From a virus, in IMG/VR virus record IMGVR_UViG_3300020444_000143, positions 1-47,857 of that record: DNA of 47,857 bases, one strand, 5' to 3'. Positions 13,451 to 45,743 of the stretch are shown here, one piece after another. A model generated the notes under the pieces. That model was not told where the DNA came from and ran no database searches. It was given only the letters and a program-made list of their open reading frames with translations. Position 1 is the stretch's first letter, and each line of letters opens with the position of its first letter. Position numbers and translations under genes: made by a program.

Positions 13451-13457
13451 AATTACC

Positions 13458-13802
13458 TCACTTCTTTCCTGCTTCGTTTAACTTCTTGGTGATTTGCTGT
13501 TGAAACCATTTGAGAACAATCGGTATGCTCACATTAGATGTCAATCCAAAAAGATAACCGATGGGATAACGATAACTTTCATAGGCCGCAAGTTGTGGAA
13601 CATTTGTAAATACAATAGAAATCAACAAATATCCAGTTGCTGACATTCCCATATTGATAACTAAATCAAGTAAAATCAACCATCCATGACCGTTATACTT
13701 ATCCTTATTATCCTGTCTGTAATTAAACAGAAATATCCAAAATGATGAAAATAATACCAATCCAAGCATCATCATTTCAGAAGTGTTAAATAAATCAATC
13801 AT
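13458..13802 (-). CDS. Small polytopic membrane protein
   Basis: This 114-residue protein has three hydrophobic segments (about residues 11-27, 41-65 and 77-98) and a basic C-terminal tail ('QQQITKKLNEAGKK'). The size, segment number and charged tail are holin-like, but no family-specific motif was recognised. ATG start with AAAGGT a few bases upstream. It lies 12 bases after the 56-residue gene and 7 bases before the cytochrome gene, within a run of membrane or exported proteins, so a joint membrane function is plausible. Confidence 0.75.
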   Translation of the reverse strand: MIDLFNTSEMMMLGLVLFSSFWIFLFNYRQDNKDKYNGHGWLILLDLVINMGMSATGYLLISIVFTNVPQLAAYESYRYPIGYLFGLTSNVSIPIVLKWFQQQITKKLNEAGKK

Positions 13803-16384: not shown

Positions 16385-16387
16385 TTA

Positions 16388-21801: not shown

Positions 21802-22410
21802 CTATTCTTCTTCGTATATAATGTAGTCCTTATATTTGTTGATACTTCTTTTTAAAATTTCATAGTGTTTTTGTTTATTAACCCAAAAATGAGTAAAAAG
21901 TATAAATCTATCAGGATCATAATTACCACCATGAGTTGTATCTGTACTTCGTATAACACACCAATCAGTATCTATTGGCATTTTAGCTAAAACTGTTTCT
22001 CCATTATTTTTTTGAATATAAGGATTTTTAATATTGTTATCATATTGTATTGTCATTCGATAGCCACATGGTTGTAAACTTTTTTCATGTTTCCATAAAT
22101 CTGCGTTTTTATCTGGTGTTAAAAAATCAATATGCATTTCAGTAGCTTTTAAATAATTATTAATTCTAACATTAACTAAATGATCAATTGGTAAATTTTT
22201 ATCAATATATTTTGTTAGAGAAGATTCTTCAATCCACGATGATTTACTATAATTTTTATTTGTTGTAGTAAATTTTTGATATTGAAATGCTTGAGCACCT
22301 GTTCCATCATCCGGCGGTGAGTCACCAACAAAATTATCTATAAGATCTTTTTTATATTGATATTTTGGAATGTCGACTGGCATCCATAAAATATTATCAA
22401 AATTATTCAT
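21802..22410 (-). CDS. Fe(II)/2-oxoglutarate oxygenase-like protein
   Basis: This 202-residue protein shows the double-stranded beta-helix facial-triad pattern: H93-x-D95 in 'MHIDFLTPD', then H160 in 'STDTTHGG', and R168 ('DPDRFILFTHFWVN') as the candidate 2-oxoglutarate contact. The upstream part is poorly conserved. It resembles small phage 2OG-Fe oxygenases. Substrate unknown. The upstream neighbour is a methyltransferase with a 9-base gap. One of five such oxygenase-like genes in this operon. Confidence 0.6.
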   Translation of the reverse strand: MNNFDNILWMPVDIPKYQYKKDLIDNFVGDSPPDDGTGAQAFQYQKFTTTNKNYSKSSWIEESSLTKYIDKNLPIDHLVNVRINNYLKATEMHIDFLTPDKNADLWKHEKSLQPCGYRMTIQYDNNIKNPYIQKNNGETVLAKMPIDTDWCVIRSTDTTHGGNYDPDRFILFTHFWVNKQKHYEILKRSINKYKDYIIYEEE

Positions 22411-22419
22411 ATTTCTTTC

Positions 22420-23001
22420 TTAACGTTTTTTAAATACAGTCATAAAATGTCTTTGTTGTCCTTCATCTTCAGTAAGTATAGAATCAACTTTTTCCGAAGA
22501 AATAATATCCAAATATTCTTGATCTCTCCATCCAAATGCTGTAAGAGGATCATCATTTCCATGAGCTGATACTGATGCTACCATCATTCCATTTTTTTCT
22601 AAAGAATCTGAAAAGAATTTTGCTGTATCTGATTGAAGATGTGATTTGTTAAATCCTCCAATAATTGTTATACATTTATATTTTCTTGGTAATGGAAATT
22701 CTTTCATATCATGCAAAATTATGTCACGATAATTAGTCGCCTCAAATGTATCAATCATTTTTTGATTAACATCATATCCATCTATAATATAATCATTATT
22801 ATTAAAACCAATACCAATCTGACCATTACCACATGCAACATCTGCTATTTCAGTACCTAATTCAAAATTCCTTTTTACCCAATCACATGCATAACGTATA
22901 GGACCTTCCATCCAACCGACCTTCATTGTCCAAGCGTGATAATCCCAATCCTTATATAATTCTTCAACACTTTTACTATAAACTTCATCAAGCCAAGTCA
23001 T
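22420..23001 (-). CDS. Class I SAM-dependent methyltransferase
   Basis: This 193-residue protein has motif I 'IADVACGNGQIG' (52-63), 'DGYDVNQKMIDTF' (second strand acidic residue), 'ITIIGGFNKSHLQSD' and 'LEKNGMMVASVSAHGND'. It belongs to the Methyltransf_11/25-type small enzymes. A preceding 30-residue helix ends in a 'WMEGPIRY' motif. Substrate not evident. It lies between two Fe(II)-oxygenase-like genes. Start ATG with AGGAATAAAAT upstream. Confidence 0.85.
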   Translation of the reverse strand: MTWLDEVYSKSVEELYKDWDYHAWTMKVGWMEGPIRYACDWVKRNFELGTEIADVACGNGQIGIGFNNNDYIIDGYDVNQKMIDTFEATNYRDIILHDMKEFPLPRKYKCITIIGGFNKSHLQSDTAKFFSDSLEKNGMMVASVSAHGNDDPLTAFGWRDQEYLDIISSEKVDSILTEDEGQQRHFMTVFKKR

Positions 23002-23004
23002 ATT

Positions 23005-23886
23005 TTATTCCTTTATAATAGTTGTGTAATCAAATGCGACTCTCCATAATTCTCTAGACTTATTCACAACATGTGAACGTCTATGTATAGTATACAATTG
23101 ATCCATAATTAATAAATCTCCCTTTTTAAATACAAAATGTTTTTGATATATTGACCTATCTAATATTTTTTTAAGTTTATCTTTTATAATATTTACATCT
23201 ATCAACTTTCCATTTTTCCATGCCTTTTCTGTTAAAGATGGTTGCCAATATAAAAATTCTTCTCCACCAATTGGATGAACATTCACAATTGACATGCGTT
23301 CATCTCCCTTATGATGTGCCGGAATAGTATAATCTTTCACAACAGCAATCTCATTATCCTTGCCGGCCATTGTGTATTTCACTTCATGCGCCATCATGTT
23401 CCCAATTGCTTCCCGGTCAGCCCGATCCTTTTGTGCGTCATCTATAGATCCGAATACGCCATAATTAAAATTATTTAATTGTATTTCAACAGTACGCCAG
23501 TAATCTTTTTCATTATTAGGTAAATCTAAAAAAGATCTTCTTTGATCTAATAAACTAAAAACAGTATCACGACATTCTTCCACACAATACAAAGCAGTTA
23601 ATATTTCTTTAAAATCTCCTATATGTATCATAGTACCATCCCCATGCCACTCTAAATCTGCCATACCAAACAAACCTTTATACATTACTCTCGATATATC
23701 TGGATTATCTTTTGGATTAAAAGGCATGTAACCCAACACATCATCGTCTGTATTTCCTATACGCCTACAATAATTAACTAATTGAGATTGAGTTAAATTC
23801 TGTTCGTGATAAAAAGTATAGCCATGTTTTAATACTTTCTGTATTTCTGATTTTAATTCTAAATCTGTAAATTCTAATACTTGCAT
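23005..23886 (-). CDS. TauD/TfdA-type Fe(II)/2OG dioxygenase
   Basis: This 293-residue protein has H81-x-D83 in 'LEWHGDGTM', the TauD iron-binding pattern, the second His in 'MDQLYTIHRRSHV' (H268 or H272) and R282 in 'ELWRVAFDY' which binds 2-oxoglutarate in the family. 'FKKGDLLIMDQ' before the His is also typical. The length matches TauD (about 280-300). Substrates of the family are sulfonates, amino acids and peptidyl carriers. Adjacent to an ANL adenylating enzyme (next gene upstream, zero gap), so a hydroxylation of an activated or linked amino acid is conceivable. Confidence 0.85.
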   Translation of the reverse strand: MQVLEFTDLELKSEIQKVLKHGYTFYHEQNLTQSQLVNYCRRIGNTDDDVLGYMPFNPKDNPDISRVMYKGLFGMADLEWHGDGTMIHIGDFKEILTALYCVEECRDTVFSLLDQRRSFLDLPNNEKDYWRTVEIQLNNFNYGVFGSIDDAQKDRADREAIGNMMAHEVKYTMAGKDNEIAVVKDYTIPAHHKGDERMSIVNVHPIGGEEFLYWQPSLTEKAWKNGKLIDVNIIKDKLKKILDRSIYQKHFVFKKGDLLIMDQLYTIHRRSHVVNKSRELWRVAFDYTTIIKE

Positions 23887-25311
23887 TTATATTTCACTAT
23901 GTGGTTTAATACTCAATGTTGATATTATTTCATTAGGAAAATCATCTAACAAACTTACTAATTTTGATTTTTGATGTTTCGTTTTTCCACCATAATACAA
24001 TTTTTCAGTAACATGATATATATTATGCGGACGTTTATATTTTTGAAGTTCTTCAAACCGTTTAGCAAGATTATTAATATCAGCCGATCCTGTATAAATT
24101 ACATAATGTATTTCATCACGAGAACAACTTGATACCTCATTAACTCCTGGTTCTAGTAATGCTTGAGCCTCTACTAATCCTGTGTAAACTTTTACGCCAT
24201 CTTTCATAAAAATTACATCATCAAAAACTCTACCATCATAATACCATTTTCCGTTCGCAATTTTCATTTTATCACCATCAGTCATCCAATCATTAAGTCC
24301 ATACTTGTACCACAATACGCCCCCATCATCTACTTTTAATTCTCCCCAATAATAAGTTTTATAAAAACCATAAAAATTATCTAATGAATCTCCTGGCCTA
24401 TATTCAGATCTTGTATGACAATCCGCTTCAGTGCTCGCCATTACATTATAAATTACTTTCCATTTAAACTTTTTCTCAATATCTCTAATAATATTTTCTC
24501 CCGTATGCCCTCCAGCAAATTCCCAATAATCTACCTCAAAATCAAAATCATCAGGACATGCATCAAGTAATCTTTTTACAGCATTAGGATAAGACGCCAC
24601 AAGATTTGGTTTCACTTTTTGAAATTGTTCTGGAATATTATCCACTGTTTCATTTATAAAATGAATTGTTCCGCCTGTATAATAAGCTCTAGCTAAATTC
24701 CAAACAAGATAGGTTGATTCAAATCCTCCATTTTGTAACATTATGGGTCTTTTATTATTAAAAAGTTCAGGGGATACTTCTTTCAAATGTCCGGTCATAG
24801 AACCCATTGTACAACCCCTCAATGTTTCCCCATTAACATTAGCTTGAGCATGATCCTCATAATCCCAAAAAAATGGCCATAATTCAAATATAGGTTTTAC
24901 TGTAGTACCACTAGTCATTCCTCTATACATCTCATTGGGGTGTAATAATGTGGAAGGAATTTTGCCCTCACTATCTGGTTCATGTAACATTTTAATTTTA
25001 TTTGAACGTATAACACAACTGGCATTACTGTCACCAATTAAAGAATCTAATTCTATATTTGATTGATCTGCTGAAGCTTGACTAGCTGATCCACCATTTT
25101 TTATACTAGCAAGAATCCATAACATATCATCCAGAGTTTTAACTTCTTCAGCTACTACAAAAACAACATGAGGTCCCAATCCGTGTTTTTTTAAAATTTC
25201 AATTTTTTCATCTAACATGTTATGTAAATTTTTCCATGTAACATGTTCTGTTGATAAACTTATGAATACATCATCTTCATTAAGCGGTGCTTGATATTGT
25301 TTTAGTGTCAT
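23887..25311 (-). CDS. ANL-superfamily adenylating enzyme (acyl/aryl-CoA ligase type)
   Basis: This 474-residue protein has the AMP-binding P-loop 'MTSGTTVKP' (132-140), the A5-like 'YNVMASTEADC', the A7-like 'MTDGDKMKIANGKWYYDGR' and the C-terminal lid lysine in 'YYGGKTKHQK' (K443 is the likely catalytic Lys). The family activates a carboxylate as acyl-AMP, then transfers it to CoA, a carrier or another acceptor. No carrier-protein gene was seen. It overlaps the next upstream gene by four bases. Substrate specificity residues cannot be read. ATG start, GAAAAT upstream. Confidence 0.85.
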   Translation of the reverse strand: MTLKQYQAPLNEDDVFISLSTEHVTWKNLHNMLDEKIEILKKHGLGPHVVFVVAEEVKTLDDMLWILASIKNGGSASQASADQSNIELDSLIGDSNASCVIRSNKIKMLHEPDSEGKIPSTLLHPNEMYRGMTSGTTVKPIFELWPFFWDYEDHAQANVNGETLRGCTMGSMTGHLKEVSPELFNNKRPIMLQNGGFESTYLVWNLARAYYTGGTIHFINETVDNIPEQFQKVKPNLVASYPNAVKRLLDACPDDFDFEVDYWEFAGGHTGENIIRDIEKKFKWKVIYNVMASTEADCHTRSEYRPGDSLDNFYGFYKTYYWGELKVDDGGVLWYKYGLNDWMTDGDKMKIANGKWYYDGRVFDDVIFMKDGVKVYTGLVEAQALLEPGVNEVSSCSRDEIHYVIYTGSADINNLAKRFEELQKYKRPHNIYHVTEKLYYGGKTKHQKSKLVSLLDDFPNEIISTLSIKPHSEI

Positions 25312-25757
25312 ATTTTCTCTTCAGGATAATACCACCATCCAGCATCTGGTTCATATTTAAATATCGATATTCCCACTCTTTCAGTTTCAATATTTTCTAT
25401 TGAATGTTCTATACCAGCATTAAACTTGTGCCATTTTTTTTCTGGTATACATGTTCTATAAAGTTCTTTACCTTTGTCCCACCACACAGTTTCTACATTG
25501 CTGCCACCTGCTTGTAAAATATAATTATAATTTGTAGTCCTATCAACATCAATATGTTTGGGTATACCATTTCTTAAAATTTGATACTTGAAATTATCAC
25601 ATTCAGGAAATAAATGTTTTAGAAAATTTGTTAACTCATCTTCACAATAATAAATTCCGTATATTTCTTTATTTCCTGGCCAAATATTTTCTTTTAATTT
25701 TATTGATTCAGTATCTAAAAAACAAGGTGGGCCTGGTAAATCTAAAAATTCAATCAT
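25308..25757 (-). CDS. Small cupin-type Fe(II)-oxygenase-like protein
   Basis: This 149-residue protein has H68-x-D70 in 'IPKHIDVDR', followed 12 residues later by a strand ('YNYILQAGG'), H118 in 'GIEHSIENI' and R127 ('ETERVGISIF'). The spacing fits a minimal double-stranded beta helix like aspartyl beta-hydroxylase-related phage proteins. The N-terminus has a Cys-rich 'GPPCFLD'. Overlaps neighbours by four and eight bases. Substrate unknown. Confidence 0.6.
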   Translation of the reverse strand: MIEFLDLPGPPCFLDTESIKLKENIWPGNKEIYGIYYCEDELTNFLKHLFPECDNFKYQILRNGIPKHIDVDRTTNYNYILQAGGSNVETVWWDKGKELYRTCIPEKKWHKFNAGIEHSIENIETERVGISIFKYEPDAGWWYYPEEKI

Positions 25758-26403
25758 TTTTTCTTATCTCTATCAAATTTTTAAGAGTTTCATATACATA
25801 CATTTTATATTCTTCATCTGTACCCTCAAATAAATCACGCATAACTGCATCTTTATTTTCTTCTAATCTTTTTGCATGAGATGTGAGATAATTTGGTCTA
25901 AAATCTGACAAGTTTAAATAAGCTGGAAAGTTTGCAGTAGTTTTTAAATAATGCTCAACAACAACATTTATATCATTTGGTATTATTTCTTCTATCCTAG
26001 CATTAGGAAACGTTGCTTTTATTTTTGACTTTGTTACATGCACAGGATACATTATATATTTTCCACTTTCCATTATTTCTAAACCACCTCGTGCCTCAAA
26101 CAGTTTTTCAAATAATGGATAATATTCATCAATATCATTATAATAAGGTTCAATTACATTAAATAATGGGGGTAACATTTTGCCGTCTATCATTCTATCA
26201 AAATGATTTGGAGCAACTAATCTGCGTGATATTGAATATTCATTGATTGATGTATCAAGTGGAACTATACCATTTTCTTTACAAGAATACCAATATACGT
26301 CATCATTATCATTAGCAAGGTTTCTGCCTAATCTATGTCCACCCGCACCTTGTTCAAATGCAATGAATAAAAATTTATCATGTTCAAATAAGTCTACCAT
26401 CAT
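25750..26403 (-). CDS. Unknown protein with sulfotransferase-like P-loop pattern
   Basis: I chose the ATG at 26401-26403 (217 residues, MMVDLFEHD); a start 11 codons upstream would overlap the previous gene by 53 bases. Residues about 11-24 read FLFIAFEQGAGGHR, a strand-loop-helix that recalls the 5'-phosphosulfate loop of sulfotransferases, but the rest has no clear match. The sequence is mixed alpha/beta with several Tyr-rich helices. Product unknown; a transferase is possible. The ribosome site is weak, so coupling with the previous gene is likely. Confidence 0.55.
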   Translation of the reverse strand: MMVDLFEHDKFLFIAFEQGAGGHRLGRNLANDNDDVYWYSCKENGIVPLDTSINEYSISRRLVAPNHFDRMIDGKMLPPLFNVIEPYYNDIDEYYPLFEKLFEARGGLEIMESGKYIMYPVHVTKSKIKATFPNARIEEIIPNDINVVVEHYLKTTANFPAYLNLSDFRPNYLTSHAKRLEENKDAVMRDLFEGTDEEYKMYVYETLKNLIEIRKND

Positions 26404-27079
26404 AATACATTCTATTATTATTATAGTGGGATTCAATTAAATAAACTAAATCATTTGTATTATACCAATCATTATAAATGCACGTATCTCCCCTTACAAA
26501 TAATTTACCATCTTCAATCTTCCAATCACAATAATACGTATCACCCAATATTGTTTCTTTTCTTTTAACTTCTTGTATTTGATCCAAATTATAAAACACT
26601 TTATTAATTGTTAAGGGTCCTATTTCACTCATACCCCAATTTGCCATAAATGTTGCTCCTTTGTTTACAAATGATTCTATAATATGCCATTCAACAGGAT
26701 TGGAACCACAAGTAATCCATATACCTTTTAAATTTAAATCCTTAAATCCTTTTGTTTTAATAATTGCTTTTGCATGATCTGGAGCTAAATGAGTATGAGT
26801 GTATTTGTTAATTTCTTTAGAAAATCTATACGCATTAAATTGTTCAACAGTTACTTCTGCACCAATACTAATTGCTGGTAATGTTTGTGCTAATAATCCT
26901 CCTGCATGTTCCATTTTACATACGGTATAGATTTTAGAATTCTTTGATATTTTTTGACTTTCTATTGCAATCTTATTACATGCCTTTAAATTTTCTGGAG
27001 TCCTAAAAATATGTTTTTGTATTCCTGTTGTACCACTACTTTTAACAAAAACTCCTTCGCTTAACATATTCTTGTACAT
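26384..27079 (-). CDS. ANL-type adenylation domain lacking C-terminal lid
   Basis: This 231-residue protein has the P-loop 'VKSSGTTGIQKH' (about 12-23), the A5-like 'ANWGMSEIGP', and an A7-like 'NTNDLV...MYYDGR' region, then ends right after the hinge. It therefore corresponds to the large adenylation domain only, without the C-terminal lid that carries the catalytic Lys. It lacks the first ~100 residues of ordinary enzymes as well. It may work as a binding domain, or need a lid from another protein such as the full ligase at 23887. Overlaps the GNAT-like gene by 38 bases. Confidence 0.75.
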   Translation of the reverse strand: MYKNMLSEGVFVKSSGTTGIQKHIFRTPENLKACNKIAIESQKISKNSKIYTVCKMEHAGGLLAQTLPAISIGAEVTVEQFNAYRFSKEINKYTHTHLAPDHAKAIIKTKGFKDLNLKGIWITCGSNPVEWHIIESFVNKGATFMANWGMSEIGPLTINKVFYNLDQIQEVKRKETILGDTYYCDWKIEDGKLFVRGDTCIYNDWYNTNDLVYLIESHYNNNRMYYDGRLI

Positions 27080-27581
27080 TTAATTTCCATATAGTTTGTT
27101 CTGTATAATATAATATAGTATCAGATACTTTATCGAGTATTCCTTGTTTTGCTAATAAACCCATTAATTTATGATTTCGTAATGCCTTACCACTATGTTC
27201 ATTGGAAATGTTTGTTGTTATATACAAATTATCTGTAGGACAGTAATCTATGAAAACAGGAATAAAATCTCTCCAAGTTATTGTGTTCCAATTACCTTTA
27301 TTCAGGCCTTTATAAGGACTTGCTCCGGGTAATTCACATCCTCGAAAATTAATCCTCCAACCATTTTCGTTTATTTCTGGTAAGGGATGACAACCTCCAA
27401 CCGCAACAATTTCATCATCCTTGATAGCACAATAATATTCTCCCCAATCTTTACACCATTCTAATTTCATAGACTTAAAGGATGAGTTATTTGTATATCC
27501 TAAGTCTTTACATTTATCACAAAATATTTGGAGTTTGCTATGTAGTTGATTAGTGATTGGTTTTATATTGAAAATCCCCAT
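27042..27581 (-). CDS. GNAT-like acetyltransferase
   Basis: I chose the ATG at 27579-27581 (179 residues, MGIFNIKP), which has AGGAAAG a few bases upstream; the longer form would overlap the previous gene much more. It shows an N-terminal strand-helix, a 'YYCAIKDDEIVAVGGCHPLPE' beta hairpin typical of GNAT folds, and later 'LYITTNISNEHSGKALRNHKLMGLLAKQGILDKVSD', the helix after an acetyl-CoA-like loop. The acetyl-CoA Q/R-x2-G-x-G/A motif is degenerate (HSGKA). Substrate unknown. Confidence 0.55.
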   Translation of the reverse strand: MGIFNIKPITNQLHSKLQIFCDKCKDLGYTNNSSFKSMKLEWCKDWGEYYCAIKDDEIVAVGGCHPLPEINENGWRINFRGCELPGASPYKGLNKGNWNTITWRDFIPVFIDYCPTDNLYITTNISNEHSGKALRNHKLMGLLAKQGILDKVSDTILYYTEQTIWKLNVQEYVKRRSFC

Positions 27582-28207
27582 GCTCTTTCCTGACACCACC
27601 AACATATACCACAATGTCCTAATTTTGGGTCTTTAACATTTTGTGCTTCCCATTCACATGATCTAGTATATACAAATAAACTATCTATTAAATTATATTC
27701 TTTATATATTTGGGCTAGTTTCTTTTTATCTATATTAATCCAGGGTGTATATGCTTTATTATTATTACGTAAAACGTCTTTCATAATAGTAGGATTTCTG
27801 TCTACTTCTGTAACTTCTTCTATAAATGTATCAGTAATAGATTTTGGTGGATTAGCAGTAATTCCTGTATAGAAAATATTTATTAATTTATTTTTTCTAT
27901 AATAATCTAATTTATCAAATATATTACTTAATGTTTGATGGTCACAAAATGTACTATGATGTTCTATGTTTATATTTCCGGTTAATTCGATACATTTTTG
28001 AATAACATTATTAGTTGTTGTAACATTTTTAAATTGTCTTGCTTTATTTCCAGTAGATAAAATATAGATTTTATCATTAGAATATTTCATTAAAAAGTAT
28101 AAAAGCAAAGAACTATCAGCTCCGCCGCTACAACTTATACCTATAGGACCTTCATATATTTTTAAATTGACTCCGGATAAATTTAATTCTTTTTTAATTA
28201 AATTCAT
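27563..28207 (-). CDS. QueC-like PP-loop ATPase
   Basis: This 214-residue protein has the PP-loop SGGADSS (residues 27-33) of N-type ATP pyrophosphatases and a C-terminal zinc-type cluster: C184, then C199-x2-C202-x2-C205 followed by QERAWGF, the QueC arrangement (CGxCxxCxxR). QueC makes preQ0 from CDG with ammonia and ATP. Apart from these ends the body diverges, and no QueD, QueE or FolE was recognised nearby. A related nitrile- or amide-forming ATP-dependent step on a different substrate is equally possible. Overlaps neighbours by 4 and 19 bases. Confidence 0.75.
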   Translation of the reverse strand: MNLIKKELNLSGVNLKIYEGPIGISCSGGADSSLLLYFLMKYSNDKIYILSTGNKARQFKNVTTTNNVIQKCIELTGNINIEHHSTFCDHQTLSNIFDKLDYYRKNKLINIFYTGITANPPKSITDTFIEEVTEVDRNPTIMKDVLRNNNKAYTPWINIDKKKLAQIYKEYNLIDSLFVYTRSCEWEAQNVKDPKLGHCGICWWCQERAWGFSI

Positions 28208-28836
28208 GGTTCTATTAGATTTGTTACTGTTGACACAGATTCTTCTGTTAATTTAATATTCATTATTAATACAATATGATCATCCTCATCATTGGCATTA
28301 AATATTGTATGCCGTTTACAAGTATTTAAAAAATATAAACTACCATAATTCCAATGTAATACATTATCATATTGATATATAAAATATCCCCCATCTAACG
28401 GATTACATACTAGTAAAGGGACAATTAATCTAAAACTATCTATTGTAGATCCCATATTATCTACATGACTTGGAAAAAATCCGCCTGGTTTTAATTTTAA
28501 AATATGAGATCTAAATAACCATTCTTTAAAAGGATCACAATATAATTTTAATACATCATAAACAGGTGTTGGTACAATAAAATCAGATTCAGTTATATTT
28601 GTATTATTTTCTTTATTATACTCATATAAACTATCTAAATCAGGCCCAGGTCCTAAATTGCCGTCTAAATTAGTTACACTCAATCCCCAACGATTTATAT
28701 GTTTTCTAGGATTATATTTTGTCCAATTATCATCAAATTGGATTAATCTTTCTAACATAGTCTTCGAATTTTGATATATGTTTAATTTAACTTGATCCCC
28801 ATATGCTGTTAGAGTATTAAATAATTCAAAACTCAT
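28204..28836 (-). CDS. Aspartyl-hydroxylase-like Fe(II)/2OG oxygenase
   Basis: Start chosen at the ATG at 28834-28836 (residue 13 of the longer frame), with a strong AGGAGA about 8 bases upstream and an 11-base overlap with the previous gene. In the longer numbering H136-x-D138 in 'FPSHVDNM', a beta strand 'RLIVPLLVC' and H188 in 'LNTCKRHTIFN' give the facial triad; the 'GGYFIYQ' segment lies between. This resembles small oxygenases in marine phages. A 60-residue N-terminal extension of unknown role precedes it. Substrate unknown. Confidence 0.75.
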   Translation of the reverse strand: MSFELFNTLTAYGDQVKLNIYQNSKTMLERLIQFDDNWTKYNPRKHINRWGLSVTNLDGNLGPGPDLDSLYEYNKENNTNITESDFIVPTPVYDVLKLYCDPFKEWLFRSHILKLKPGGFFPSHVDNMGSTIDSFRLIVPLLVCNPLDGGYFIYQYDNVLHWNYGSLYFLNTCKRHTIFNANDEDDHIVLIMNIKLTEESVSTVTNLIEP

Positions 28837-32327: not shown

Positions 32328-32333
32328 AATTAA

Positions 32334-39100: not shown

Positions 39101-40394
39101 TTTCATTAACCTGCCAACCCTCATAATTATTTAAAATGTCCCATCGCCAATATTGATGTTGTTGTCTATTCTTTACAAATGTTTCCCAATGTTGTACAAA
39201 ATTTTCTAATCCTCCCCATCTAGTACATTCTTCTGTCCATAACTCATCAAATTCTATAATATCATCACAAAATTCTATTAAACTATCCTCACTATTTGAA
39301 TTATCTTTAAATTTTATATCAACCAATTCATTAAATATATCTTTAAATGTTTGTTTTTTTAGATTCCAATGTTCTGACAATAATCTCTTAAAAGATAAAG
39401 CGGGTCCACTTATATCATAAAATATAACATTTTCTTTTCCTGAATAATTAAAAGTATTTAAAATATGATTTCCAACAAATCCTGCAGATAATACCACATA
39501 ATTATCAAATTGTTTTGGTGCATTTATTCTTTCTAATAAGTTATAAAAATTATTTTCAGGTATTTCTGTTGGATATGGTTCTGAATTAAATGCATATAAT
39601 TTACTAGAATATCCTCTAGTTGTAAGTGAAGTTTGATATCTAACCTTAGTTTCCATATCATTAAGCATTTTTTTATCTTGCTGTACTTCATCCAAATAAA
39701 AATATTCTTTACTTTCTCTTATTTTATAATTAAATCCTTCAACATTATATCCATATTTAAAAACTGTATTTAAAAAGTTCCACCCCCATCCCATACGTGA
39801 TCCCTTTTCAATTTTTTTCATTTTTAATTTATAATCTCTCGGCTTTAACCATAGAGGTGTATAATCATCATGAAAATCTTCAACACATCTTTCAGGTTCA
39901 TATAATTCTTCTATTGTCAAAATACTAGAAGTGTGCAGGTCAGGGCAATGAATATCTTTATAAATTTCCAAATTTAAAAACATCATTTGAGGATGTATAC
40001 TATACCAATTTCTATTCAAATGAATTCTACTTTTAGCATCATTGTCAACAATATGACAAAGCATAGCTGTATTTGGAGAAGCTTCTGCTTGTTCAATCAA
40101 ATAAAAACACGTATCATGACTAAGACGATGTCCCGGTTTTTGAATTAATGCATATTTCCTCTCACTAGATAATGCATCTTTGATACATTCTTGTAAATCA
40201 TTATTTTCACTGTAATATATGTTTGCATGAATGTTGGCCAATTGTCCTTGAAGTTTCGATTTTGTAAACTGATCTGCAAGATCAAGTAAATATGGATCAT
40301 CAATCTCATCTTCCCAATCAGAAAAAGTTCTCCAATAGCAAAAATAAATTTCTTTTTCAGCTATCTCATTTAATACTTTATTAGAATTTAACAT
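36156..40394 (-). CDS. Giant fusion with two N-terminal-twitch radical-SAM modules
   Basis: This 1412-residue protein has three parts. Residues 1-about 515 match the layout of the 390-residue neighbour (KPGHRL near 86-91; 'IFYDISGPALSFKRLLSEHW' at 324-343). Module 2: C527 ('FCILPWIHMT'), C545/C546, C599-x2-C602, core C646-x3-C650-x2-C653 ('KCNLACRMCSAG'), 'VTGGEPTV' (723-730). Module 3: C977 ('FCILPWMHLS'), C995/C996, C1052-x2-C1055, core C1108-x3-C1112-x2-C1115 ('KCNLACSTCNPDD'), 'ILGGEPTI' (1177-1184). Both cores have all cluster cysteines, so both may be active. Overlaps neighbours by 14 bases each. The product is unknown. Confidence 0.88.
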   Translation of the reverse strand: MLNSNKVLNEIAEKEIYFCYWRTFSDWEDEIDDPYLLDLADQFTKSKLQGQLANIHANIYYSENNDLQECIKDALSSERKYALIQKPGHRLSHDTCFYLIEQAEASPNTAMLCHIVDNDAKSRIHLNRNWYSIHPQMMFLNLEIYKDIHCPDLHTSSILTIEELYEPERCVEDFHDDYTPLWLKPRDYKLKMKKIEKGSRMGWGWNFLNTVFKYGYNVEGFNYKIRESKEYFYLDEVQQDKKMLNDMETKVRYQTSLTTRGYSSKLYAFNSEPYPTEIPENNFYNLLERINAPKQFDNYVVLSAGFVGNHILNTFNYSGKENVIFYDISGPALSFKRLLSEHWNLKKQTFKDIFNELVDIKFKDNSNSEDSLIEFCDDIIEFDELWTEECTRWGGLENFVQHWETFVKNRQQHQYWRWDILNNYEGWQVNEINNLKGNTFIWVSNVYANEYALWEHKNYSNIFKQLKKLISKLNDQVYVYGFLPDIKLDDDDSERIYNSFGRKVLQGEIYTKKFLQENINIPTKNFCILPWIHMTSSVAGWYRVCCDSNKNLRVGSDSKDVTSQDALHANVATIKDAFYSPEMNKIRKQFLNNERPNICSTCWKREDMGIASLRIAMNGRFADNIDTFNLKKPKLKYLDIKYDNKCNLACRMCSAGSSDQHQKELLIQVNDGKRIPNHFDYGEYENNNKYKKELSHRLSSHAEKPFLEQDVISALPELEVLKVTGGEPTVNHKFLNAVDYAIKNDYAKNIVLDLTTNGTKFNSDLLEKISHFKFCRFRISIDGTDKLYDYIRYPFNWDMLNKSVNLMFSHFKEKEYLQNRVSVGFSIVAQPYNIFNLDDIYKWADELYKKYYTNLSEHDGPDAMIDVAVDFQMIPQSSELNSEFIDHDLLKLALEKFEANTKEVVGIKPRLKFFQNFVKNTIINNIKDLKHYQLKKTTRFYDNIRNQQYKNHLASEMIDYLDNAPPAPWKKEDSGFCILPWMHLSTRTTGNMQLCCTANSSSDDEHPQIGCNRKDDGQLVNLKHDNWKDYWNTNYMKNVRSEMIKGNKPRECQKCYKEEEVGYNSKRIWENKKWKKKLDYNSIVWHTKDDGEAPAKIHYVDLKLGNKCNLACSTCNPDDSSFWIKDWTKMKNSNISSDLQNKLSWSKGKDQNGGYNWYKNEQTWKELSEQPISDAYILGGEPTIINEFKDFIKNSPKTTNLRFNTNAEEIDDKLFSMLKRLSLVEIAVSLDGVEKRHEWLRYPSKLDTTMQNLIKYNNFAKNNEHIKINIDTTASIFNIMHIPDFIKWKLTQDEISEINKWPEHGGMIGIHFLHSPNFLSVKCLTKEYKEKISDKYNDFYKWLEENFEYYDRVLEKPNGIKKLKSLIEFMWSEDQSNLLPQTFEYIQNLENIRQLNFSIIFPELKELYNEYK

Positions 40395-41034
40395 TATTAT
40401 ATCCGTTTATGAAATTTTTCCAACTTCTTCTGACAATAGGATTCCAAAATTCTGAATCCATATTACATCCATTAGTAAGAATATGATAACGTGGCTTATC
40501 ACTATTATTAATACACTCATGGTTCCATACATTAGAAAAAAGCCACGTAGATCCATTATCAATTGGGATATTGCCCCATCCTGATACATGAAAATCACAA
40601 CCTTTTGGATGTTGAATAGAGAAATGCAGGATACTTGGACCCATTATATCAAGGGTAAGTGGTTGGTCTTCAATATCTCTATCATTATGTAAAAAAATTG
40701 AACCTCCTGGATCAATTTTCATAAATCTTGTTCTTTCATGAGATATTATTCCCGCGTGGTTTTGTAAAAAGTCTTTTGTTTTTGGACATTTATCCGCTAT
40801 ACTTGTCCAATCATATCTAACATGTTCTAATTCTTCATGATAAACACTGCCGAATTCACCACTAATTCCATGTAATGCTAAACTAGACCAATTCTTTCCA
40901 CTACTTTCTCTATATGGTATCCATTCATCTAATTGTTCAACTTCATGTAAAATGTCTTCCCAACGAAATTGAAAGTCAAGCATTAACCACGGCAATGCAC
41001 AATTATCTATTGCGTAACTATATTCTTTATTCAT
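40381..41034 (-). CDS. Aspartyl/asparaginyl beta-hydroxylase-like Fe(II) oxygenase
   Basis: This 217-residue protein has H116-x-D118 in 'SIFLHNDRD', H172 in 'NVWNHECIN' and R182 ('SDKPRYHIL'), the same order as in aspartyl beta-hydroxylases, and a 'GGSIFLH' approach strand. The N-terminus has 'CALPWLMLDFQFRWEDIL', echoing the ALPW start of the twitch radical-SAM proteins. It overlaps the standalone SPASM gene and the giant gene. A hydroxylase acting in the same pathway is inferred. Substrate unknown. Confidence 0.8.
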   Translation of the reverse strand: MNKEYSYAIDNCALPWLMLDFQFRWEDILHEVEQLDEWIPYRESSGKNWSSLALHGISGEFGSVYHEELEHVRYDWTSIADKCPKTKDFLQNHAGIISHERTRFMKIDPGGSIFLHNDRDIEDQPLTLDIMGPSILHFSIQHPKGCDFHVSGWGNIPIDNGSTWLFSNVWNHECINNSDKPRYHILTNGCNMDSEFWNPIVRRSWKNFINGYNNVKF

Positions 41035-41335
41035 TTTTTTTATCTATAAAAGTGTCTCTATTTTTTAATTCACATGTCTGTTTACATTTTTTAACAGGCT
41101 CATCTGAACTCCATGAATTTATAATACCATTAAATAACGGGCCATCTAATATTTCTTGTATTGTTTGACTATACAAACTATTATTATATTTTGCATTAAA
41201 TTCACCAAACAATGTTTTTGGGGGATGTCCAGCCGCCATATTTAATGATTCAGCATTTACATAACAACACGGTATTAATTCACCAACATGATTTATAAAT
41301 ATTCTTTTTTGATTTCCATATTTACATTCTATCAT
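41027..41335 (-). CDS. Standalone SPASM-type domain
   Basis: This 102-residue protein matches only the C-terminal SPASM region of the radical-SAM protein at 43292: 'RIFINHVGELIPCCYVNAE' versus 'EIFVTAEGHVFPCCWTAGQ', then 'TIQEILDGPLFNGIINSWSSDEPVKKCKQTC' in parts versus 'TIKEIVNGPFFKAIEDSWS' and 'KVCANKC'. The Cys pattern for an auxiliary Fe-S cluster is present (C4, C23, C24 and the C-terminal KCKQTC). A radical-SAM core lacking this part is encoded at 42702. Together they look like a split enzyme with the hydrolase gene in between. Overlaps both neighbours by 4-8 bases. Confidence 0.8.
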   Translation of the reverse strand: MIECKYGNQKRIFINHVGELIPCCYVNAESLNMAAGHPPKTLFGEFNAKYNNSLYSQTIQEILDGPLFNGIINSWSSDEPVKKCKQTCELKNRDTFIDKKNE

Positions 41336-42705
41336 ATTACTTTCTTTATACTATCCAAAAAATAATCTGCTAGCCATTGATTTGACTTTTTTCCAGGATG
41401 ACTTAAATCTCTTGCATAATCATCATAAGCAGAAGGAAGTTTATTTTTTTCAATGTATTCAATTACTTGTTCTCTCGTAGCCTGTTTTCCATCTTCAACA
41501 AAATTCTCTATCATTTCTGCCATCTCACTAATTGATGTAACATTTATCTGTGCATCTACTTTATTAAAAGGTATCTCATAATCATCAGCCAAAAAATAAT
41601 GAAAGGAAGCCTTATTTTCATAACAAACACCTTTAACAGCATTAATATTTCTTGATGCATTTAATTTATTCATATATATATTTCTGGACATATGATTAAC
41701 CAATTGTTTTACATATTGATCAAAATATATATCCCCCTCTTCACCCTGATGAGATCCGAACGGATTTGTACAAATATCAAATTCAAATAAGTCAGTATAT
41801 TCAGTTTTATGTTGAATAAAAGAAACATCTTCCCACCAGTAAGGCTCTTTCTGGAGCGCCAATTTCCAATTAGATTCAAAACCCTTTAATATAAGATATT
41901 TAAATAAATTTTCATTAAAATGAAAAGTACGAGTAATATTAGGACCTAAAAATACTACATGTTTCGGTTTTAAAAGAGGTATTAAATATTGACTAAAAAG
42001 ATATGCTTGATCATGACTACCTCCTGATAGACCTACATTATAGTTTTTTAATCCCAAAGTTTTACTAAGTATATTAGAAAAACGATCTTTTTCTGCTAAA
42101 CCTATACCATAAACATAACTACATCCTAATATTAAAATACTATCACCTTTATTGTCAAAATCAAATTCATCAGACCTAAATCCCCAACTATTATGTCTAT
42201 ACCAAGGCACTTCTTCACATTCAGTCTGTAAATAATTTATTTGTTTTTTTGATAATGTATATGGCCAATCCTGGCCATCATGAATCATTTTAATTTTCTC
42301 AAATTGTTCTGTATATCCACACATATCCAGTACATATTTGCCGTAACTGGAATTTTGAAATTTATCATATCGCTCTTTATTATCTTGCCCCATATAAAGA
42401 TAATCGCCATTACGTCTATGCCAAGATGTATGCAAAAATGGTATAATTTGTTTTTCTGTAAAATCATGATTTTGTAAATATCCTATAAAATGAGTCAATT
42501 CTGTATCATGAACATTAAAATTTGTTAAATCAAATTCTCCATTATCAATTCTTTGACTAATTTTAGAAATCTTTTCTTCTGAACCATCTTTAATAGGGCA
42601 TTTAGGTAAAATATCATCTTCCCATTCTAAACAAAATCCTTTAGTTTTGAAATCTTTTCCTAATTTAAACTTAGCATTATTGGCATTTAGATGTTCTTCA
42701 CTCAT
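41332..42705 (-). CDS. SGNH/GDSL-like hydrolase with N-terminal domain
   Basis: This 457-residue protein has an SGNH fold at residues about 188-440: block I 'ILILGCSYVYGIGL' (Ser196; Cys replaces the Asp of GDS), 'NVGLSGGSHDQ' (block II Gly), 'VVFLGPNIT' (block III GxN) and D433-x2-H436 ('RDLSHPG', block V). The N-terminal about 180 residues contain 'IPFLHTSWHRRNGDYLYMGQDNKERYD', not recognised. Such enzymes act as esterases, lipases or acyl transferases. It lies between the two halves of the split radical-SAM/SPASM protein, with four-base overlaps. Confidence 0.75.
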   Translation of the reverse strand: MSEEHLNANNAKFKLGKDFKTKGFCLEWEDDILPKCPIKDGSEEKISKISQRIDNGEFDLTNFNVHDTELTHFIGYLQNHDFTEKQIIPFLHTSWHRRNGDYLYMGQDNKERYDKFQNSSYGKYVLDMCGYTEQFEKIKMIHDGQDWPYTLSKKQINYLQTECEEVPWYRHNSWGFRSDEFDFDNKGDSILILGCSYVYGIGLAEKDRFSNILSKTLGLKNYNVGLSGGSHDQAYLFSQYLIPLLKPKHVVFLGPNITRTFHFNENLFKYLILKGFESNWKLALQKEPYWWEDVSFIQHKTEYTDLFEFDICTNPFGSHQGEEGDIYFDQYVKQLVNHMSRNIYMNKLNASRNINAVKGVCYENKASFHYFLADDYEIPFNKVDAQINVTSISEMAEMIENFVEDGKQATREQVIEYIEKNKLPSAYDDYARDLSHPGKKSNQWLADYFLDSIKKVI

Positions 42706-43292
42706 TTCACTTCTCCACTACCTGTTCTATGTGAATATATTTTTCTAAATCTTTTAAATCCTTCAACTTTAGACATATTCTCTGCCTCCTTTATTAAATG
42801 TTCATTATGATCAAATACAATAAATTGCCATGTTGCATTGCCGCCCGCACCTATAAATGCTCTATAATTTTCCTGCACCTTTTTAAAATTAGATCCAATT
42901 CTATATTTTTCCAATGATTTTTGATCTGTTCCATCAAGACCAAAAAATACAGATAACTTTCTTCTACCCAGATCTTCCCAGAATTTAATAGTTCGAGTAG
43001 ATCCATTAGTAGCAACATTAACATCTGAAAAATCTAAAAAATAATCTACTATGTCTATAAATTCCGGATGAGTAGTGGGTTCATCGACTGATCCACAAAA
43101 ATTTATAATTTTCAAATTGGGTAAATATCCTTTCGGAATCCATTTTTTTAAATCTTCAAATTTAATATAAGACTTATTAAGTAATGGTCCAACTTTATCA
43201 TGCATTTCTTGACGAAGACATCCTGGACATTTAATATTACAAAAACTAGTAAGTTCTATATCAATCCATTCTATGGTATTTTTATTCCACAT
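42702..43292 (-). CDS. Radical-SAM core lacking SPASM (split protein)
   Basis: This 196-residue protein has the core motif C18-x3-C22-x2-C25 ('SFCNIKCPGCLR'), 'IINFCGSVDEPTTHPE' (a GGEP variant), 'FGLDGTDQKS' and 'IVFDHNEHLIKEAENM'. It ends where the 353-residue paralogue at 43292 goes on to its linker and SPASM. The core alone is complete as a short barrel. The missing SPASM appears as a separate gene at 41027. One-base overlap with the upstream full-length enzyme and four-base overlap with the SGNH gene. Confidence 0.85.
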   Translation of the reverse strand: MWNKNTIEWIDIELTSFCNIKCPGCLRQEMHDKVGPLLNKSYIKFEDLKKWIPKGYLPNLKIINFCGSVDEPTTHPEFIDIVDYFLDFSDVNVATNGSTRTIKFWEDLGRRKLSVFFGLDGTDQKSLEKYRIGSNFKKVQENYRAFIGAGGNATWQFIVFDHNEHLIKEAENMSKVEGFKRFRKIYSHRTGSGEVK

Positions 43293-44353
43293 TATAAAAA
43301 TTGTTCATTATATGCATCAAATCCTATTCCACATTTGTTAGCGCAAACTTTAAGTTTTCCATCTTTAACACTGGAACATGACCAAGAGTCTTCTATGGCT
43401 TTGAAAAACGGGCCGTTAACTATTTCTTTTATAGTATGTTTTCTGAGACTGATATTTTCATAATCTCCTATTAATTTCCAAATAGGTGCTTCGCGGGGTT
43501 TCCAATACCATTTATATTGTTGTCCCGCTGTCCAACAACAAGGAAACACATGTCCTTCTGCCGTAACAAATATTTCCTTCTTATCTATTGCTTTACAATT
43601 AATAGGTGTTGTATCATAATATGCATCCATACTACCATGTTCAGCAACTAAATCTTTTTCTTTTTTTAGTGCAACATTAACAAACTCTAAACTGGGTTTT
43701 TCTAACTTCTGAGTATTTTCGCCTTTTCGATTTGTTGCTTGATGGGCGTCTTTACCTTTATGTTGAACAGTCGAAAAGAAACGTCCTGTTTTTTTGACTT
43801 GAAATTTTTCAAAGCCCATATCCATCGCCAATTGTCTTGCCTCATCTACCTGATGTTCATTATGTTTAAACACTATAAAATCCCATTTAGCATGACCACC
43901 TCGATCAATAAACGCTTTGGCATTCTCCATTACTCTTTCCCATTTAACTTTTTGCCTATATAAATGATTAGTATCCTCTAAACCATCTATACTAAATGTT
44001 ACAACTACATCTATATCTGCTAAATCTTCCCAAAAATATTCTGGTTTAGCGCCTCCATTGGTATTCATACCTAACCACATATTGGGATTAGCATTTCTAA
44101 AAGATCTAAATCCCTCGATTGCATAATTGCTTATGCATGGATCACCTAAATTACCACACATATACATAGAGTCCAACTGTTCTACAAAATGCCAAGGAAA
44201 CATTTCATAATAATCCATAGAACTTAACATTGCATTTGTGAGATAGGGATTATCTTTACCACCATTTATATTACGGTCACATTGGGGGCAAGCGGCATTA
44301 CATCCCTGAGTAGGTTCAATATGAACACTTTTTATTTCATCATATCTATACAT
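43292..44353 (-). CDS. Radical-SAM/SPASM enzyme, full length
   Basis: This 353-residue protein has core C18-x3-C22-x2-C25 ('QGCNAACPQCDR'), 'MYMCGNLGDPCISN', 'FSIDGLEDTNH', 'FIVFKHNEHQVDEAR', then a linker and SPASM region with 'INCKAI', 'VFPCCWTAG', 'DSWSCSSVKDGKLKVCANKCGIGF'. It is the paralogue of the split pair 42702 and 41027. The SPASM family usually modifies peptides or carries auxiliary Fe-S clusters for oxidation. The stop is one base from the split core. The start overlaps the next enzyme by 22 bases. Confidence 0.92.
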   Translation of the reverse strand: MYRYDEIKSVHIEPTQGCNAACPQCDRNINGGKDNPYLTNAMLSSMDYYEMFPWHFVEQLDSMYMCGNLGDPCISNYAIEGFRSFRNANPNMWLGMNTNGGAKPEYFWEDLADIDVVVTFSIDGLEDTNHLYRQKVKWERVMENAKAFIDRGGHAKWDFIVFKHNEHQVDEARQLAMDMGFEKFQVKKTGRFFSTVQHKGKDAHQATNRKGENTQKLEKPSLEFVNVALKKEKDLVAEHGSMDAYYDTTPINCKAIDKKEIFVTAEGHVFPCCWTAGQQYKWYWKPREAPIWKLIGDYENISLRKHTIKEIVNGPFFKAIEDSWSCSSVKDGKLKVCANKCGIGFDAYNEQFL

Positions 44354-45711
44354 AATTCTGGAAAAACTTTTTCAAATTGTTTATGTGGTCTTAATCTATT
44401 TAAATGTGAAATATATTCTTGAAATTCGGGAAGTCTTTCAGACCAATCTTCATCATCCATGAAATTTAATAGTCCTTCATATCTTTTAATTCCATAGGAT
44501 GAATTTGCCCAATCATCAAATTCTATATTTTCTACACCGGTACATAATTTCCAATTATCTTCCATCCAAGGGAAAAACTCTTCTTCATATTTCTCTCTAA
44601 TTTTATATTTTAATTCTTTTGGTATTATTTTAACATTTAATTGTGGTGGCCAATATGCCAAATGACAATTGATCATTCCTGCTCCCCCAGGCCATTTATT
44701 TATTTTCTTATATCCTTGCTGAACTTTCCAAGATATAAATTCTGGAAGATAATTAATACTCAATGCCATAATAGTTGTTGCGGTTGTTACTGTAATATTA
44801 TCATCAGTCTGATCCATTAATTTTAAATTCTTTTCAATAATTTTCCATCTACTAGGATAGCGAATATAATCATTATACTTTCCCCAACTATCTATTGAAA
44901 AATGAAATATTACATGTTTAAATTCACTCCACAACTTAAATAACTTATCTGGTAATTCAATACCATTTGAATTATATCTTAATTCAATTTTAGGAGCATA
45001 GCCCATTTCAATTACTTTTTCAAGTAAGGTATAATGCTCGTCAATAATAGTTGATTCACCTCCTGCAAAATATAATTGATAAATGTTTGGTATTTGTTCA
45101 TATAAATCTTCCCAAAAATGAGGACTCATTTTATGCCAATTATACGTTCCGCCGTCTTCATTTTTTTTCCATTGACTAGTATCTTTCAATCTTTCATTTT
45201 TTATTTTAGGATAAAAATCTAACCACTCTTTATTCCATCCAGAAGAATCATTTGGAGAACACATCACACAAGCCAATTGACATTTACTTCCCATTCGTAA
45301 GTCAATATATCTAAGTTTGGGGGCAACTGATCCATCTTCATTTGTGTTTTTTACTAATTCATTTAAATCATAAATTTCTCCCCATTTATTAGTTTCCCAA
45401 ACTCTTTTAGGAATATGGCCCGCATCTTCTTCTTTAAAACATTTTTCACATTGAGGGGGGCGTTCACCTTTCATCATCATCAATCTAGTACGCCTCATAT
45501 AATCATTATTCCACGCATCTAATAATCGAGTGGTATTTAAATTAGCACATTGGCCATCTTCATTTCTTATATTTGCTTTTGTTCTTATGGAAGAATTTGG
45601 ATCTTGAACAGCAGACGCATTCGCAGTACAACATACTCTCATATGTCCGTTGGGTCTTGTTGATAAATGTATCCACGGCAATGCGCAAAAAGTGGGGGAA
45701 GGATAATCCAT
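44332..45711 (-). CDS. N-terminal-twitch radical-SAM protein, first gene of the cluster
   Basis: I chose the ATG at 45709-45711 (459 residues, MDYPSPTF); an in-frame GTG four codons upstream is the alternative. Cysteines in the longer numbering: C13 ('FCALPWIHLS'), C31/C32, C92-x2-C95, core C148-x3-C152-x2-C155 ('KCQLACVMCSP'), then 'FAGGESTI'. It closely resembles module 3 of the 1412-residue protein. A late-type CATAAATA box lies 35 bases upstream, so it is the first gene of the leftward cluster. The gene overlaps the next by 22 bases. Confidence 0.9.
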   Translation of the reverse strand: MDYPSPTFCALPWIHLSTRPNGHMRVCCTANASAVQDPNSSIRTKANIRNEDGQCANLNTTRLLDAWNNDYMRRTRLMMMKGERPPQCEKCFKEEDAGHIPKRVWETNKWGEIYDLNELVKNTNEDGSVAPKLRYIDLRMGSKCQLACVMCSPNDSSGWNKEWLDFYPKIKNERLKDTSQWKKNEDGGTYNWHKMSPHFWEDLYEQIPNIYQLYFAGGESTIIDEHYTLLEKVIEMGYAPKIELRYNSNGIELPDKLFKLWSEFKHVIFHFSIDSWGKYNDYIRYPSRWKIIEKNLKLMDQTDDNITVTTATTIMALSINYLPEFISWKVQQGYKKINKWPGGAGMINCHLAYWPPQLNVKIIPKELKYKIREKYEEEFFPWMEDNWKLCTGVENIEFDDWANSSYGIKRYEGLLNFMDDEDWSERLPEFQEYISHLNRLRPHKQFEKVFPELCIDMMK

Positions 45712-45714
45712 AAA

Positions 45715-45743
45715 TTGTCTCACTAAATATTAATAACTATAAT
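45715..45743 (+). promoter_or_regulatory. Candidate promoter for the rightward glycosyltransferase gene
   Basis: TTGTCT at 45715-45720 and TATAAT at 45738-45743 are separated by 17 bases: a perfect -10 and a -35 matching at four of six positions. In addition ACTAAATA at 45722-45729 lies 35 bases before the ATG, matching the spacing of late boxes. One or the other may start the rightward transcript. The AT-rich context lowers certainty. Confidence 0.4.

Follow-up and report, generated by a model that had tools for sequence, protein, structure and literature searches.

Host recognition islands and the present contig

Pelagimyophages carry a hypervariable island between VrlC and gp14, the host recognition cluster (HRC), which contains tail fibres and glycosyltransferases (PMC7029224, 2020). 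Comparison of two genomes in that work revealed cassettes of radical S-adenosylmethionine (rSAM) genes within the HRC, and a change to the host surface was proposed (PMC7029224). A survey of Tasman Sea phages reported enrichment of both rSAM and glycosyltransferase genes in the same samples (PMC7150976). Here we describe an island of this kind on a 47,857-base virus contig, IMG/VR record IMGVR_UViG_3300020444_000143 (hereafter the window, meaning the whole stretch analysed), in which a block of 22 open reading frames (ORFs) on the minus strand holds nine rSAM cores. Cassettes of rSAM genes at this locus have been on record since 2020; what appears to be new is a trio of rSAM genes within the block (g1, g2 and g12), their co-occurrence, and their presence in Bdellovibrionota. 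Neither these features nor nine cores in a single block are described in the accessible part of PMC7029224, and the trio was not found named in the open-licence PMC literature searched, so far as its accessible text extends, which is no proof of its being unpublished.

On its gene content, the contig is assigned to an uncultured T4-like phage, with the block immediately upstream of gp13, at the "host recognition" locus of T4-like phages. Both the phage type and the position of the island are fixed by the neck protein gp13:

16388–17134, minus strand: gp13 neck protein, by tblastn to T4-like neck proteins, at 45% identity or less among the matches listed

Among these tblastn matches, identity is 43% to a Pelagibacter phage and 45% to a Caulobacter phage. 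The neck genes gp13 and gp14 together span 15539–17134 and adjoin the block, a position matching that of the HRC on this side; VrlC, which marks the far side of the HRC, is not in view in the window. The minus strand bears T4-like late genes, with the large terminase at 4408–6042 (59% identity or less among the matches listed). In all 13 loci that show both genes, four of which are near-copies of the window block, gp13 lies downstream of g12 on the same strand, a shared position that makes late expression of the block plausible.

Among cultured phages, Pelagibacter phage Mosig EXVC030M (MT647606.1) has a related island in the same place before gp13, between gp13 and VrlC. It contains a DegT aminotransferase (closest to the PseC and LegC-type models of NCBIfam, though scoring below their cut-offs), a carbamoyltransferase, and a GT8 match just under cut-off, together with Fe(II) oxygenases, rSAM genes and, by eye, an SGNH-like ORF. 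Mosig has homologs of four window proteins, namely the products of g13 (41% identity to a Mosig protein annotated Asp_Arg_Hydrox), u3 (30%) and g20 (29%), all listed below, and a NAD-dependent epimerase encoded at 17192–17863 (PF01370; 39%). The window block, in contrast, lacks the DegT aminotransferase and the carbamoyltransferase.

A conserved trio within a changing halo

The genes g1, g2 and g12 form a conserved trio, and the genes around them differ from phage to phage, giving a core and a halo. The members of the trio are:

44332–45723, minus strand: g1, rSAM protein with N-terminal twitch domain (N_Twi_rSAM), 463 residues; NF033640 at 395.8 bits; orthologs in phages and Bdellovibrionota
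43292–44353, minus strand: g2, rSAM/SPASM protein, 353 residues; PF04055 and PF13186 over cut-off; orthologs in phages and Bdellovibrionota
28826–29857, minus strand: g12, rSAM protein with four invariant, twitch-like C-terminal cysteines; PF04055 at 57.5 bits

A profile search of the PDB with g12 gave weak general relatives (viperin, the anaerobic sulfatase-maturating enzyme and one odd match to an E3 ligase); the g12 alignment leaves out L073, L078 and L084.

For the counting of families, 104 loci, including five contigs from metagenome-assembled genomes (MAGs), were dereplicated to 66 viral or phage-like loci. The g12-type cluster was present in 57 of the 66, a biased count in that most loci had been picked by g12. 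N_Twi-type rSAMs occurred in 54 loci (182 genes), g2/g3-type rSAM/SPASM proteins in 44 and QueC-like proteins in 37; the aminotransferase-like family was found in 22, a nitroreductase in 18, a family like the short-chain dehydrogenases/reductases (SDR) in 17 and the u3 family in 16. A single representative underlies each of the nitroreductase and SDR labels, and the SDR match is weak.

All three trio genes lay within 10 kb in 14 of 89 phage-like loci, and g12 stood alone in 40. Because the trio is often out of view at that distance, whole records were searched. The 32 long phage records comprised 29 picked by g12 and three picked by g1. A match to g1 at E 4e-229 or better was found in 30 of them (next best 3.5e-133) and a match to g2 at E 9.8e-136 or better in the same 30 (next 6.4e-96), with one strong match each. 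The complete trio was present in 27 of the 29 records picked by g12, which represent 25 distinct g12 sequences; the exceptions, G335 and G337 (loci L100 and L103), matched neither g1 nor g2 at the E-values used. The gene next to g12 in L100 resembles a nitroreductase by eye.

The trio in Bdellovibrionota

The phylum Bdellovibrionota is known for its predatory members. In a single genome scan, g12 yielded 26 loci, of which five were MAG contigs with phage-like islands whose g12 fell in the phage clade, and these were counted as phage. The five (L141–L144 and L164) bear bin labels of Acidimicrobiaceae, Gammaproteobacteria, Rickettsiales and Chloroflexi, and are probably misbinned phage contigs. 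The remaining loci were labelled Bdellovibrionia, Bdellovibrionales, Oligoflexia, Bacteriovoracaceae and Halobacteriovoraceae, with L161 labelled merely as a bacterium. The complete trio was found in 13 of the 20 Bdellovibrionota-type loci with a match at the cut-offs, and lay within 5 kb in 11 of the 13; three of the loci with an incomplete trio are contigs of 4–10 kb. L165, with a partial g12, had no match at the trio cut-offs and stands outside the 20.

Across 290 Bdellovibrionota genomes, g12 was found in 17, g1 in 15 (all among the 17) and g2 in 15 (14 among the 17). All three genes were present in 13 of the 290 at the E-values used, the counts being uncorrected for kinship. Since 13 of the 290 genomes had already been reached via g12 and five supplied rows to the g1 and g2 profiles, the telling part is that g1 at E 1e-150 had no match in the 273 genomes without g12. 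In the 17 genomes with g12, NF033640 at E 1e-20 gave up to 20 matches per genome.

The Bdellovibrionota trio loci (e.g., L146, L157 and L163) hold orthologs of g12 (51–60%), g2 (42–48%) and g1 (49–56%), but are chromosomal and have a halo unlike that of the phage block. In a g12 tree of 108 sequences cut to 80, 59 of the 61 phage rows fell in one supported clade apart from Bdellovibrionota, and the other two were divergent, long-branched rows outside it. Given this separation, exchange of the trio between phages and Bdellovibrionota was probably not recent. In one Bdellovibrionota island, L178:12505–14022 encodes a B12-binding-type rSAM (best NCBIfam model TIGR03975, below cut-off), near which are proteins that by eye resemble the HTTM family.

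Recurrence of the block and probable exchange of cassettes

An initial sequence-only reading of the window had called for a gene-neighbourhood comparison and had raised beforehand the prospect that the block was an assembly chimera of unrelated contigs. A chimera or a one-off block is ruled out by near-identical blocks in 3300006339_000004, 3300032278_002257, 3300009425_000016 and other contigs. These copies, in contigs that bear other metagenome names (L009, L010, L012 and L136–L140, with the same gp13 junction in L136–L140), show the block to be a recurring unit. The same reading had taken all of the genes to form one pathway, which is not supported in that simple form, as the conserved trio sits amid genes that differ by phage. 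In the more distant L094 and L097, the order g7-g8-g9-g11-g12-g13-g14 is kept; g10 is missing, and other genes separate g11 from g12. Identity of L094 to the window is 79–81% for g9, g13 and g14, 62–72% for g7, g8 and g11, and 59% for g12. Because neighbouring genes are unequal in identity, the non-trio genes apparently vary by cassette exchange.

The density of radical chemistry had also been called exceptional for a phage, which holds in the sense that g12 is without a match in 50,697 phage records. The same set contained no close relative of the block DNA (24,951 bases), and protein searches of the same set at E 1e-5 gave no match to g12 or g14, three matches to g1 at 26–28% identity, and one to g2 at 26%, in Mosig. 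In IMG/VR, however, 118 stretches carry a g12 relative, and 11–13 rSAM matches occur in other combinations in G013, G014 and G015, the last two of which look like near-copies. Islands of this rSAM kind are not rare among uncultured phages.

Architecture of the block

The block spans 21802–45723 on the minus strand, where its 22 ORFs leave the DNA 99.9% coding. With the first possible start codons, 17 of the 21 junctions overlap and the largest gap is 9 bp; in our reading, some long overlaps would become shorter with starts placed as in relatives. The mechanical start of g1 is a GTG at 45723, with an ATG four codons inward at 45711, and either may be real. PF04055 was found at nine places in eight ORFs, with the CxxxCxxC motif at all nine. 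Eight of the places exceed the Pfam cut-off, while the ninth (32334–33710) falls below it at 20 bits, the same protein scoring 251 bits on NF033640 (cut-off 170). The first impression of nine rSAM cores in eight proteins, within about 22 closely packed and mostly overlapping genes on one strand, is thus upheld.

Six modules in five window proteins (g1, g7, g8, g9 and g11) exceed the curated cut-off of 170 bits for NF033640 (N_Twi_rSAM), a model whose description names no function. The scores of g2 (39.5 bits), g3 (30.1) and g12 (49.6) miss this cut-off, and these three are classed by sequence as other types of rSAM. The rSAM block is judged to be above chance because NF033640 at E 1e-20 had no match in any of 14 control genomes and because near-identical copies occur in other contigs. 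Apart from the trio, the genes of the block are:

42702–43292, minus strand: g3, rSAM core half of an rSAM/SPASM gene, 196 residues; PF04055 at 37.5 bits
41332–42705, minus strand: g4, SGNH-hydrolase-like, 457 residues, between g3 and g5; GCS and DxxH motifs by eye
41027–41335, minus strand: g5, detached SPASM domain, 102 residues; PF13186 at 24.1 bits
40381–41034, minus strand: g6, Asp/Asn beta-hydroxylase-like Fe(II) oxygenase; PF05118 at 45.1 bits
36156–40394, minus strand: g7, 1412 residues, an N-terminal part without assigned family followed by two tandem N_Twi_rSAM modules; NF033640 in two stretches, 569 bits; two PF04055 places
33707–36169, minus strand: g8, N_Twi_rSAM fused to a C-terminal class I/II aminotransferase-like domain; NF033640 at 336 bits
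32334–33710, minus strand: g9, N_Twi_rSAM, 458 residues; NF033640 at 251 bits
31155–32327, minus strand: g10, no family match; distantly like the N-terminal part of g7, at 21% identity in alignment
29854–31158, minus strand: g11, N_Twi_rSAM, 434 residues; NF033640 at 262.9 bits
28204–28872, minus strand: g13, Asp/Asn-hydroxylase-like Fe(II) oxygenase, 222 residues; PF05118 weak, E 0.0065
27563–28207, minus strand: g14, QueC-like PP-loop ATPase; PF06508 at 27.1 bits (cut-off 22)
27042–27614, minus strand: g15, no supported family; member of a recurring g15-g16-g17 cassette, its relatives lying beside those of g16 and g17
26384–27079, minus strand: g16, short ANL (AMP-binding) protein, 231 residues; PF00501 at 41.3 bits, mid-profile only (170–341 of 384)
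25750–26436, minus strand: g17, P-loop-like start by eye; no Pfam or PHROG match
25308–25757, minus strand: g18, Fe(II)-oxygenase-like by motif only, 149 residues; no family match; relatives in other islands
23887–25311, minus strand: g19, ANL adenylating protein, 474 residues; PF00501 at 35.2 bits
23005–23886, minus strand: g20, TauD-like Fe(II)/2-oxoglutarate dioxygenase; PF02668 at 36.5 bits
22420–23001, minus strand: g21, S-adenosylmethionine methyltransferase-like; PF13649 at 23.5 bits, below cut-off
21802–22410, minus strand: g22, Fe(II)-oxygenase-like by motif only; no Pfam or PHROG match

The other enzymes that had been named from the sequence fared unevenly. Two ANL proteins and a QueC-like enzyme are present at scores over the Pfam cut-offs; the SGGxDS motif and four cysteines are invariant across 18 sequences of the g14 family, and a scan for close relatives of g19 returned near-identical contigs only. 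Of five proposed Fe(II)-oxygenase-like enzymes, two exceed the Pfam cut-off (TauD at 23005–23886 and Asp_Arg_Hydrox at 40381–41034) and one is a weak match (28204–28872), while those at 21802–22410 and 25308–25757 have the motif and no family match. The aminotransferase-like domain could be placed in the C-terminal part of g8, with weaker support: a profile of this family, in which SxxK and an Asp are invariant, matches PDB aminotransferases at E 3.5e-4. The methyltransferase has sub-threshold Pfam matches only, and the SGNH hydrolase keeps its label by motifs seen by eye, with no SGNH match in Pfam and no PHROG match for g4. Relatives of g4 are present in other islands.

The genes g3 and g5 look like two halves of one gene. 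In 10 of 10 related loci examined they are a single ORF of 308–319 residues, whereas in the window they are separated by the 457-residue SGNH-like g4, with both halves kept as ORFs (41027–43292). Mosig likewise has an rSAM core ORF and then, with no insert between, a SPASM-like ORF whose PF13186 match is below cut-off.

Neighbouring families and sugar context

Clear sugar enzymes were found in relatives of the window block rather than in the block itself. Beyond g1, and divergent from the block, lie three further genes:

45764–46516, plus strand: u1, glycosyltransferase-like with a DxD motif
46461–47036, plus strand: u2, small protein that adjoins u1 and u3 in other islands too
47021–47857, plus strand: u3, class I S-adenosylmethionine-methyltransferase-like, truncated by the end of the window

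The DLD of u1 is invariant in 11 sequences; u1 had no Pfam match and no useful match in a PDB profile search. For u3, the PDB profile search gave weak matches to spermidine synthases. A structural model of a u3 relative in L144 (48% identical; predicted local distance difference test score, pLDDT, of 84.7) matched methyltransferases at a VIA Z of about 15, and the modelled fold of the u3 family is that of a class I methyltransferase. No link of g10 or of the N-terminal part of g7 to u3 was found by hhalign.

Around the bacterial trio (19 loci, of which 18 are distinct, L171 and L150 being one place), two non-rSAM families are the commonest: a GT-A-like family of about 230 residues, in 9 of 18 loci, and the u3 family, found in 8 of them. 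A model of the GT-A family (pLDDT 88.8) has a GT-A fold over its first 140 residues. It matched glycosyltransferases and nucleotidyltransferases at VIA Z 9–11 over about 130 of 230 residues, with a root-mean-square deviation of mostly about 3 Angstrom; the VIA lists are filled by GT-A/nucleotidyltransferase and methyltransferase folds, and the C-terminal third of the GT-A model is barely tested by them. The family has an invariant Asp in a DxD-like motif, and its PDB profile search returned nothing useful. A DegT sugar aminotransferase is present in one bacterial trio locus and a GT2 in another. The sister contig L012, which extends beyond the window, holds two more glycosyltransferase candidates with weak, below-cut-off GT matches.

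Proposed function and alternatives

The block is read here, at a probability of about 45%, as a pathway of modular design whose product is a glycan, or a decoration of one, on the host surface or the virion. The trio would make or rearrange one common building block via radical chemistry, and the halo would then aminate, hydroxylate, acylate or de-acylate, methylate and attach it. The product would be a glycan or glycan substituent put on the host envelope or the virion late in infection, and a change of halo would alter it, as in O-antigen variation. Superinfection exclusion and adhesion are the usual candidate benefits. A glycan is held to be the likeliest product because enzymes of the carbohydrate type are repeatedly found near the trio, both in bacteria and in some of the phages, and because surface modification has already been proposed for the locus. 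A more specific version of this proposal, which we regard as doubtful, is that a three-rSAM pathway, found here only in uncultured phages and Bdellovibrionota, builds an undescribed unit to which each phage adds its own tailoring, resulting in a combinatorially diversified surface glycan that two kinds of attacker of bacteria would have in common. If true, phages would be carrying a naturally combinatorial system of radical chemistry, in which three enzymes stay fixed while the halo changes, and its link to Bdellovibrionota would suggest that both have a similar need at the surface of the cell they attack. One could then also test why such phages bear many envelope-type genes beside tail fibres, a question raised with the description of the HRC.

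Several observations weigh against these proposals. None of the 22 genes in the block encodes a proven sugar enzyme, and for this reason the glycan is placed at a little under even odds. Mosig, which has the best sugar context, lacks any match to g12 or g1 and matches g2 over part of its length only, at 26%. The GT-A family occurs in 7 of the 66 phage loci, among which only L105 has a main-clade g12; its presence in so few trio-bearing phage loci lowered the glycan reading from about 50% and made the three-enzyme pathway slightly more doubtful than before. The u1 family is in 8 of the 66 dereplicated phage loci, the GT-A fold is common to glycosyltransferases and nucleotidyltransferases, and hhalign found no link of u1, g10 or the N-terminal part of g7 to the GT-A family. 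The trio itself is not always compact: in G011, g12 lies about 75 kb away from g1 and g2, which speaks against a single linked unit, and among ten records picked by g1, a g12-type match at E 1e-40 was found in four (two of them strong) and in none of the other six, which are fragments of 24–62 kb. Some profile rows came from the records searched (in the g1 and g2 profile sets, L068, L073 and L101 in A5 and L073 and L101 in A6), so that matches of these rows to their own profiles are expected, and five Bdellovibrionota genomes supplied rows to both the g1 and g2 profiles. Lastly, rSAM/SPASM and Asp-hydroxylase families often modify proteins.

This last point leads to an alternative that we consider unlikely, in which the island modifies a virion protein post-translationally, such as the adjoining tail fibres, by hydroxylation, radical rSAM/SPASM modification and glycosylation. 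The SPASM domains and Asp_Arg_Hydrox folds, common in protein modification, count in its favour, as do tail-fibre-like ORFs seen by eye just past the island in L012 (with no Pfam match for the two tested) and VIA matches of the GT-A family to the peptide S-glycosyltransferases SunS and ThuS and a domain of the lysyl hydroxylase LH3. However, the trio is also chromosomal in Bdellovibrionota, where no tail genes were seen among the ORFs inspected, and the ANL and QueC-like genes better suit a small building block.

The resemblance of the ANL proteins, aminotransferase domain, tailoring oxygenases and rSAMs to a natural-product cluster, and the TctA-type transporter gene that adjoins, would fit a diffusible small molecule (a signal, toxin or cofactor) made during infection. 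We think this improbable, as Pfam searches at E 0.1 found no nonribosomal peptide synthetase condensation, carrier-protein or polyketide domain in the 22 genes, and genes resembling glycosyltransferases are found repeatedly around the trio, in bacteria and in some of the phages. Together with tail-fibre modification, it is nevertheless the chief competitor of the glycan reading.

Modification of DNA or tRNA bases, for example by a 7-deazaguanine-type pathway around the QueC-like protein, is a distant prospect. It is suggested by the Pfam score of g14, by QueC-like genes in 37 of the 66 dereplicated loci, by a weak match of g12 to the QueE-like PHROG phrog_2076 (E 8e-7), and by genes in L044 and L041 (~17800–20400) that by eye are folE, queC and DpdA-like and stand beside an rSAM island. 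It is disfavoured by its missing partners, the 22 genes having no FolE, QueD or transglycosylase match in Pfam at E 0.1 on a contig that is a fragment. In addition, g12 matches other rSAM models better than QueE, the QueC-like family profiles weakly match TtuA and asparagine synthetase in the PDB, g14 weakly matches the TilS model, and the trio is present on bacterial chromosomes. Finally, although rSAM/SPASM proteins and Fe(II) oxygenases co-occur in known clusters for ribosomally synthesized and post-translationally modified peptides (RiPPs), such as that of polytheonamide, a RiPP pathway in which rSAM enzymes heavily modify a ribosomal peptide is highly improbable here, given that a largest gap of 9 bp leaves no room for a separate precursor gene inside the block and that known RiPP-maturase rSAM models score far below their cut-offs.

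Other genes of the window

Outside the island, the ORF at 9305–10540 encodes a zeta-toxin/polynucleotide-kinase-like protein (PF06414 over cut-off) whose C-terminal part is weakly nucleotidase-like (PF06941 below cut-off). Amid the phage structural genes, 11178–11858 encodes a membrane protein of the Pycsar effector family PycTM (PF18967, 71 bits). The region 11868–13802 encodes a family 3 solute-binding protein (PF00497), then two small membrane proteins, the first of which has a CxxCH haem-type motif by eye. Within 18356–20909, separating the island from gp13, lies a TctA permease gene (PF01970, 268 bits), and the product of its neighbour, without a family match, resembles by eye a TctC-type binding protein, giving a tripartite-transporter-like pair on a phage.

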